Origin: Pseudooceanicola endophyticus | GTDB taxonomy: Bacteria; Pseudomonadota; Alphaproteobacteria; Rhodobacterales; Rhodobacteraceae | NCBI RefSeq assembly: GCF_018760365.1 | Contig: NZ_JAHIAB010000001.1 | Location: 327,813-391,812 of the forward strand | Direction of reading: 5' to 3' | Length of the DNA stretch: 64,000 bases | In this document: piece after piece, positions 49,123-51,852 of the stretch | How positions within the stretch are numbered: position 1 is the stretch's first letter | How the letters are laid out: each line of letters starts with the position of its first letter | Program-made: the position numbers and the translations under genes | Notes under the pieces: model-generated | The model's input: the letters and a program-made list of their open reading frames with translations, nothing else | The model's database searches: none | What the model was told of the DNA's origin: nothing

Positions 49123-49173
49123 GCCTTCGGGTTTCGCTTGCACAAAGCCGCGCCCTGCCCCATGGCAGGGCGC

Positions 49174-50355
49174 ATGACTTTCGACACGATCATCCTCGGA
49201 GCCGGGGCCGCGGGCCTCATGTGTGCCGCCCATTGCGGCGGGCGCGTGCTGGTCATCGACCATGCGAAACACCCCGGAGAGAAGATCCGCATCTCGGGCG
49301 GCGGGCGGTGCAATTTCACCAACACCGGCACCGGGCCCGCGAACTTCCTCTCGGCCAACCCGCATTTCGCCAAGTCCGCGCTGGCCCGCTACACGCCCTG
49401 GGATTTCGTCTCGCTGGTCTCCGAACACGGCATCGCCTGGCATGAAAAGACGCTGGGCCAGCTGTTCTGCGACGACAAGGCCACCCAGATCGTCGAGATG
49501 CTGACGGGCCTGCTGCGCAAGGCAGGCGCGGAGCTGGCACTGGAAAGCACCGCCGAGGACATCCGCGCGACCCCCGGCGGGGGCTATGCGCTGACCCTGC
49601 TGCGCGCAGGGCGCCGCCAGACGCTTGCGGCACGGCGCCTCGTGGTGGCCACCGGCGGCAAGTCGATCCCGAAGATGGGCGCCACCGGCCTGGCCTACGA
49701 CATCGCGCGCCAGTTCGGGCTGAACGTCACCGAGACCCGCCCGGGCCTGGTGCCCCTCACCTTCCCCGAGGGCCGCTTCGCCGCCCTCTCGGGCACCGCC
49801 CTGCCCGCCCGCGTCCAGGCCGAGGGGCCCGCCTTCCCCGAGGCGCTCCTGTTCACCCATCGCGGCCTCTCGGGCCCGGCGATCCTGCAGGCTTCCTCCT
49901 ACTGGCGCGAGGGCGAAAGCATCACGGTCAATCTCTCGCCCGCAGCCGATCCCTTCACCCGCCTGCGCGCCCAGCGGCAGGAGGCCGGGCGCAAAAGCCT
50001 GACCCGCAGCCTCGACGCGCTGCTGCCCTCGCGCCTGTCGGATTTCCTGAGCCAGGACTGGGGCCTGAAGGGCAACCTCGGCGATCAGTCCGACCGCGCC
50101 CTGCAAGACCTCTCGCAGCGCCTCACCGGCTGGCAGCTCACCCCCGGCGGATCCGAGGGCTACCGCACCGCCGAGGTCACCCTGGGCGGCATCGACACGG
50201 ACGCGCTGAACTCCCAGTCGATGGAGGCCAAGACCCAGCCGGGCCTGCATTTCATCGGCGAATGCGTCGACGTGACCGGCTGGCTCGGCGGCTACAACTT
50301 CCAGTGGGCCTGGGCCTCGGCCATGGCCTGCGCCCGAGCGATCAAGGGGGCCTGA
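49174..50355 (+). CDS. BaiN/HI0933-type FAD-dependent oxidoreductase
   Basis: 393 residues. Start MTFDTIILGAGAAGLMCAAH contains the dinucleotide-binding GxGxxG (about 8-13). The family motif GEKIRISGGGRCNFTNTG is near 37 and ATGGKSIPKMGATG near 165. The C-terminal YRTAEVTLGGI and FIGECVDVTGWLGGYNFQWAW close the fold. HI0933-like flavoproteins have no firmly known general role; BaiN acts in bile-acid reduction in gut bacteria. An in-frame ATG 12 codons upstream is possible. The last codons (ARAIKGA and stop) lie inside the first unit of a 29-bp tandem repeat. Confidence 0.9.
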   Translation: MTFDTIILGAGAAGLMCAAHCGGRVLVIDHAKHPGEKIRISGGGRCNFTNTGTGPANFLSANPHFAKSALARYTPWDFVSLVSEHGIAWHEKTLGQLFCDDKATQIVEMLTGLLRKAGAELALESTAEDIRATPGGGYALTLLRAGRRQTLAARRLVVATGGKSIPKMGATGLAYDIARQFGLNVTETRPGLVPLTFPEGRFAALSGTALPARVQAEGPAFPEALLFTHRGLSGPAILQASSYWREGESITVNLSPAADPFTRLRAQRQEAGRKSLTRSLDALLPSRLSDFLSQDWGLKGNLGDQSDRALQDLSQRLTGWQLTPGGSEGYRTAEVTLGGIDTDALNSQSMEAKTQPGLHFIGECVDVTGWLGGYNFQWAWASAMACARAIKGA

Positions 50356-50453
50356 AGGCCCCCGGGGCGATCAAGGGGGCCCGAAGCCTCCCGAGGCGAT
50401 CAAGGGGGCCCGAAGCCCCCAGGGGCGATCAAGGGGGCCTGCAGCCCCCGCCC
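50338..50453. repeat. 29-bp tandem repeat, four copies, each with a hairpin
   Basis: Units at 50338-50366, 50367-50395, 50396-50424 and 50425-50453, exact period 29. Each begins GCGATCAAGGGGGCC and continues with a GAAG- or GCAG-type turn and a C-run that pairs with the GGGGGC arm. Unit 1 includes the last five sense codons and stop of the BaiN-type gene; the array ends one base before the murD stop codon. It forms four consecutive stem-loops in the convergent gap and probably arose by duplicating the original terminator. Confidence 0.92.
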
Positions 50454-50454
50454 C

Positions 50455-51852
50455 TCAGGCCAGCGCCTGCACCCGGGCAACGAAATCGTCGCCGCGCTTC
50501 TCGAAACTGTCATACTGGTCGAAGCTTGCGCAGGCGGGGGCCAGCAGCACCGTGTCGCCGGCCTCGGCCTCGGCATGGGCGCGGGCCACGGCCGTGCCCA
50601 TGTCGCCGCAGATCTCGACCTCGATCCCCTTCAACTGCATGGCGACATGCGCGGCCTCGCGGCCGATCACGTAGGCCTTGCGGACCTCTGCGGCATCCGA
50701 CAGCAGCGGCGCCACGCCGCCTTCCTTCTCCAGCCCGCCGCAGATCCAGCGGATCTTCCGGAAGGCCCGCAGCGCCTGGCGGGCACTGTCGACATTGGTC
50801 GCCTTGCTGTCGTTCACATAGGCCACGCCAGCGATCTCGGCGATCTTCTGGCTGCGGTGCGGCAGACCGGCAAAGCTCTTCAGCGCCGCCTCGATCTGGC
50901 GCGGCCCCATGCCGAGGCTGCGCGCCACCGCGTAGGCCGCGCAGGCGTTCTGGTGGTTGTGTGCCCCGGGCAGCCCGGAGATCTCGCGCAGGTCGATGGC
51001 GCCGACCTGCCGGCCCTTGCGATATTCTGCCAGGAAGCCCTTCTTGGCAAAGACCAGCCAGCCCGGCCCCGAAAGCTTGCCTGCCGAGGACACCCGGATC
51101 ACCCGGTCATCCCCCGGCCCGACCGACAGCTGGTTGGCCAGGAAGCGCCCCTCGACCTCGTCCACGCCGATCACGCAGCGATCCGGGCCGCCTTCGGCAA
51201 ACAGCCGACGCTTGGCCGCGAAATAGCCCCCCGGCCCGCCGTGGCGGTCCAGGTGATCGGGCGAAAGATTGGTGAAGACCCCGACATCCGGCGTCAAAGC
51301 GCGCGCCAGCTCGGTCTGGTAGGACGACAACTCCAGCACCACGATGCCGCCATCGCCGGGCGGGTCGATATCCAGCACGCCGCGCCCGATATTGCCGGCT
51401 AGCTGCACCTCGCGCCCCGCCTCGCGCAGCACATGGGCAATCAGCGCCGAGGTCGTCGACTTGCCGTTCGAACCGGTCACCGCCACCACCTTCGGCGGCT
51501 GCTCCATCATCGCCCAGTCGGCCCCCGCAAGAGAACGGAAGAACAGCCCGATGTCGTTATCGACCGGCACACCCGCCGCCAGCGCCTCGGCAATCGCCGG
51601 ATGCGGCGCCGGGTAAAGATGCGGGATCCCCGGAGATGTCACCAGGCAGGCCAGGTCCGCGCAGCCCCCGGGCTTCGCAAAATCGCGCAGCGCCACGCCC
51701 TCGGCCGCCGCAAGCTCGCCCGCGCGTGCCCCGTCATCCCAGACCACGACCTCTGCCCCACCGGCCTGCAGCGCACGGATCGTCGCGATCCCGGAGCGTC
51801 CCAGCCCCAGTACCCCGACCACCTGACCTTCGAACCCCCGGACCGGAATCAT
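50455..51852 (-). CDS. murD: UDP-N-acetylmuramoylalanine--D-glutamate ligase
   Basis: 465 residues from ATG 51852 with AGGAG before it. Adds D-Glu to UDP-MurNAc-L-Ala. N-terminal UDP-binding motif [20 protein letters not shown] near 9, P-loop [19 protein letters not shown] near 122, [11 protein letters not shown] near 205, [17 protein letters not shown] near 345 and the terminal [22 protein letters not shown]. It belongs to the dcw pathway but is 2.1 kb from ftsW here, separated by two + strand genes. Confidence 0.96.

Follow-up and report, generated by a model that had tools for sequence, protein, structure and literature searches.

REP palindromes often lie between convergent genes and can carry GTAG/CGTC tags, as described in PMC3733652. 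Heptamer arrays are known from Xanthomonas and Nostoc; in xanthomonads, according to PMC4692102, 16% lie between convergent and 7-8% between divergent ORFs. For Bacillus cereus, PMC5381666 reports stronger conservation of terminators that two convergent genes share than of the remaining ones, and slightly more frequent substitutions in the terminator arm adjoining the T tract. For arrays of hairpins that span a stop codon, we found no account among the titles and abstract openings listed in searches of open-licence papers. We analysed one such array, located in a window of 64,000 nucleotides (C1 327813-391812) of a 5.2-Mb draft genome in 46 contigs. Four 29-bp units lie there head to tail between a flavoprotein gene and murD (50338-50453):

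49138..50355, + strand: BaiN/HI0933-type FAD-binding flavoprotein gene (NCBIfam TIGR00275: 359 bits, cut-off 184)
50338..50366, + strand: copy 1, the final five codons of the flavoprotein gene with its stop, then a hairpin with a 7-bp stem and the loop TGAA
50367..50395, + strand: copy 2, stem of 6 bp, one pair of which is G-T on the + strand and becomes an A-C mismatch on the - strand
50396..50424, + strand: copy 3, 6-bp stem
50425..50453, + strand: copy 4, 6-bp stem, recognisable over 25 bases, to 50449, where the TRF call ends
50455..51852, - strand: murD, convergent with the flavoprotein gene (NCBIfam TIGR01087: 335 bits, cut-off 212)

Coordinates of the flavoprotein gene are those of the listed ORF, which begins at a putative TTG start, and we take BaiN and HI0933 to be names for the TIGR00275 flavoprotein. 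The murD product has 465 amino acids, counted from the methionine of MIPVRGF.

The array is a genuine but fairly ordinary repeat. TRF reports a period of 29, 3.9 copies, a score of 175 and zero indels, that is, the constant-period, head-to-tail organisation of a minisatellite or VNTR. This score ranks 9th among the 199 TRF rows obtained for 1.64 Mb of the genome, and the maximum across 200 Markov-simulated sets, each of 102 gene-end regions, was 89. The first-pass annotation had described four exact 29-bp copies that start within the flavoprotein gene's last codons and end one base ahead of the stop codon of murD. Both borders are as it placed them: copy 1 reads GCG ATC AAG GGG GCC TGA (A-I-K-G-A-stop), and the right edge falls one base before the TCA at 50455-50457. 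The 29-bp spacing is exact as well, but the units themselves differ, with 8 of 29 columns variable and pairwise identities of 22-26 of 29. It was also right that the first hairpin arm is fully conserved (columns 1-15 are the same in all four copies) and that the second arm and loop vary while mostly keeping the pairing, the perfect + strand stems being 7, 6 (with one G-T pair), 6 and 6 bp long. All variable columns fall within the other 14 of the unit and none within the first 15 (p about 0.017, a weak result, the pattern having been noticed ahead of its test), and the invariance of the first half may reflect selection there. A G-quadruplex, prompted by the G runs, was set aside by judgement.

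We compared the same gene end in related genomes, one per species. The flavoprotein gene is present in all 22 genomes of the genus, that of the window included, and the array is missing from its 3' end in 21 of 21 congeners, among them the nearest one (78% identity in the flavoprotein). The exact invariant 15-mer occurs four times in 5.2 Mb, each time inside the array, and the full array has a single match in the genome. Together, absence from the congeners and confinement of the 15-mer to the array indicate a local expansion in this lineage. In 16 of the 21 congeners murD converges on the flavoprotein gene within the fetched locus, and in the other five the locus contains no murD. The 16 gaps measure -4, 4, 7, 9, 22, 28, 35, 86, 98, 105, 111, 160, 394, 497, 497 and 1143 nt, a spread which implies that the flavoprotein-murD gap changes fast. 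We also screened 102 gene-end loci, made up of the best 80 from a contig search and the 22 genus genomes (two of the loci, L003 and L093, are near-identical). Strong arrays crossing the stop were found in 3 of the 102, namely that of the window and the first two of the following, the third being weaker:

L098, a congener: 13 bp x 4.7 across the flavoprotein stop, repeating the last codons and the stop, with a sequence unrelated to that of the array in the window; murD is not a neighbour within the locus
L006, Ruegeria sp.: 27 bp x 2.3 across the stop of the same gene
L049: 14 bp x 2.2, touching the flavoprotein stop

Since the units of the three strong arrays are unrelated in sequence, we take them as independent events.

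We consider it probable that the array is a small minisatellite, produced by replication slippage in one lineage and seeded by a terminator-type hairpin overlapping the flavoprotein stop. The ancestral locus would have held one GC hairpin over this stop and, provided that copy 4 still marks the original right border, a gap of ~12 nt, which lies within the range of several congeners. Three extra units would then have been gained by slippage between C runs, one being the CCC of the flank at 50333 and the other the C run that ends the hairpin. The hexamer CCCGAG is found at 50333 in the flank and again where copies 2 and 3 meet (50390), which fits C-run slippage plus one added G; the stem-loop could have favoured slippage by stalling the replication machinery. 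The array would be tolerated because neither a promoter nor a ribosome-binding site is expected in a convergent gap and because copy 1 leaves the end of the protein intact; possibly it also aids 3'-end formation. For the hairpins one may envisage protection of mRNA 3' ends or an assisting role in termination, more plausibly for murD, but neither is required to explain the array. Some points count against slippage. The invariance of the first 15 columns could mean selection on that half of the unit. The CCCGAG microhomology predicts a unit of 28 bp, so that one inserted G is required in addition, and a match over six bases is weak evidence. Finally, the terminator core that the unit appears to share with other hairpins would fit a selected function as well as an origin.

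A selected multi-hairpin terminator, in which weak hairpins in series end transcription in both directions, or at least from murD, is a possible though rather unlikely alternative to slippage. Each copy retains a GC-rich stem-loop with a stem of 6-7 bp (-9.9 to -16.7 kcal/mol on the + strand), and in the murD direction the invariant 15-mer consists of the 3' arm and a TTGATCGC tail. Hairpins are common in short convergent gaps of this genome: 126 of 164 gaps carry one (65 in one simulated set), and 50 of 164 carry one followed by at least 4 T in the next 8 bases on a strand (6 in one simulated set). The perfect 7-bp pattern GGGGGCC-N4-GGCCCCC is present at six places in the genome, copy 1 included, compared to one for a control pattern (each place appears on both strands and was counted once). 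With the loop TTCG, this core occurs at one place outside the array, C1:652919 (L164:12919); this place lies in a convergent gap and has T tracts on both sides, GTTTCG and GTTTTTCG. The same stem is found at six places in five congeners (L274-L279), with the loop TTCG in five cases and TCCG in one, followed by CTTTTTC or TTTTTC. A looser pattern gave 26 two-mismatch matches in the 21 congeners versus 4 for the control, and six of the 26 are the core hairpin with a T run. The recurrent hairpin GGGGGCCTTCGGGCCCCC (one variant with TCCG) with its T run is thus seen at six places in congeners and one in this genome, and may represent a terminator type widespread in the genus. A convergent gap of the congener G003 holds GC hairpins in an array of 37 bp x 2.6, with TGTTTTCG after two of them. 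Against a working terminator stands the lack of a proper T tract directly 3' of the stems. On the + strand, where the stems are followed by GGGGCGAT, CGAGGCGA, AGGGGCGA and GCCCCTCA, it is absent; on the - strand every copy continues with the weak TTGATCGC, 3 T of 8, versus a run of 5 T in the related hairpins. A poor T tract is not rare, as 51 of the 91 strongest hairpins in short convergent gaps have at most 3 T in 8, so hairpins lacking a good T tract are common too. However, a promoter/terminator scan, which needs 5 T in 8, found no site in the array, the array as a whole shows no clear folding advantage over shuffled sequences (z -1.03 on the + strand and -1.65 on the - strand, with 34 of 200 and 9 of 200 shuffles, respectively, folding at least as well), and in 7 of the 16 congeners with a convergent murD the gap is at most 35 nt, too short for such an array. 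The strong two-way block suggested by the first-pass annotation thus finds no support in the present form of the array. Its other proposal, a duplicated terminator, is borne out with respect to the core, which is common to hairpins with T tracts at one further site in this genome and six in congeners and so points to a terminator-like origin of the unit, but not with respect to the array itself. Judging by these likenesses, the unit probably derives from, or imitates, a true terminator hairpin of the group, the T tract having been lost or never present. A role of the array in Rho-dependent ends or in protection from 3' exonucleases is possible.

A dispersed REP-type palindrome, or an array of protein-binding sites, inserted between the genes is also disfavoured, and we regard it as very improbable. 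A small repeated GC palindrome between convergent genes would be at a frequent REP location, going by PMC3733652. With 1-2 mismatches allowed, moreover, another 80 genomic matches to the 15-mer appear, versus 9 exact or near ones for a reversed control pattern. But among the 26 of these 80 that were read, a loose second arm was seen in only 4 and the second half of the unit in none, and we infer that its first half resembles a common coding word. The many dispersed genomic copies of a REP element are lacking, the exact 15-mer being restricted to the four positions of the array; copy 1 is built from the flavoprotein's own last codons; and Rfam gave no match in the array. A distant BLAST search against plasmids returned 37 records, none spanning 80% of the query, and the matches listed hit the flavoprotein part only. 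That the array is an assembly or sequencing artefact is hardly credible. Repeats are prone to mis-assembly and the genome is a 46-contig draft, but the copies differ from each other at 8 columns and the array measures just 116 bp, short enough for ordinary single reads to span. Replication slippage from a terminator-type hairpin is the reading that we retain.

We then looked for tandem arrays in short gaps generally (0-250 nt, TRF score of at least 50, 1.64 Mb of the genome, gene ends from a simple home-made codon-usage script rather than a standard annotator). Arrays are present in 11 of the 164 convergent gaps, 9 of the 685 same-direction ones and 2 of the 127 divergent ones (simulated means 1.4, 2.8 and 0.5, respectively), and a slightly different gene caller gave 11/164, 9/684 and 2/127. 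The frequency of arrays in convergent gaps is therefore about five times that in the remaining short gaps (11/164 versus 11/812, p = 0.0003), also when the array under study is left out (10/163, p = 0.0009). Same-direction gaps too exceed their own simulation, which shows that arrays also occur outside convergent gaps. For three congeners a 400-kb stretch each was counted, with arrays in 1 of 30 (G021), 3 of 29 (G003) and 0 of 22 (G019) convergent gaps. Pooled, this amounts to 4/81 versus 8/521 for the other gaps (p = 0.064), where one of the four is the L098 array, already seen prior to counting; on their own, the three congeners do not establish a convergent-gap excess.

Several other arrays were also observed. 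The 37-bp array of G003 (G003:C1:1722389-1722683, L252) forms three tandem GC hairpins, the two with a TGTTTTCG tail having it on one strand, is accompanied by an 11-bp array at the end of the left gene, and is a clearer amplified terminator than the array of the window. In the genome under study, outside the window, there are long intergenic arrays with units of 6-8 bp, most of them perfect: TGGGCT x48.7 (91%; L137:19654-19948), CTGAGCC x33.4 (L179:17128-17361), GGCTCTT x14.9 together with GGGACA x11.5 in one convergent gap (L164:7406-7649), TCGGCAAC x10.6 (L186:17618-17702) and ACCGCTC x9.6 (L204:1755-1821). They are similar to the heptamer arrays of Xanthomonas and Nostoc and, by analogy, could vary between strains. 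Units of two further arrays (121-bp x 3.7, L175:11945-12394; 99-bp x 2.8, L174:19700-19975) look like tandem tRNA genes by sequence.

The array of the window matters little by itself. The wider pattern suggested here is a clustering of tandem duplications at convergent gene ends within this genome, together with their recurrence in unrelated lineages at one and the same gene end, and it bears on how terminators and 3' UTRs originate and change. One might speculate that convergent gene ends in the genus are hot spots of tandem duplication through colliding transcription or the positive supercoiling between converging genes, that gene tails, stops and terminator hairpins are repeatedly copied there, and that some of the arrays are retained as multi-hairpin transcription blocks; we consider this more general scenario doubtful.

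Compared to known systems, the array resembles REP palindromes, as PMC3733652 describes them, in being made of small GC palindromes near gene ends, which at times are tandem, but its unit is not dispersed in the genome. With bidirectional intrinsic terminators, as presented in PMC5381666, it shares the position in a convergent gap and a GC stem-loop that can be read from either strand, and its core is common to the hairpin with T tracts on both sides at C1:652919. In contrast to such terminators, it is fourfold repeated and has no proper T tract on either strand. Bacterial minisatellites, or VNTRs, are defined as a class by a copy number that varies between strains, and the array is known here from one genome of the species. 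Like them, it consists of imperfect head-to-tail units of tens of bases at a single locus in one species; what sets it apart is that its first unit includes the last codons and the stop of a gene.
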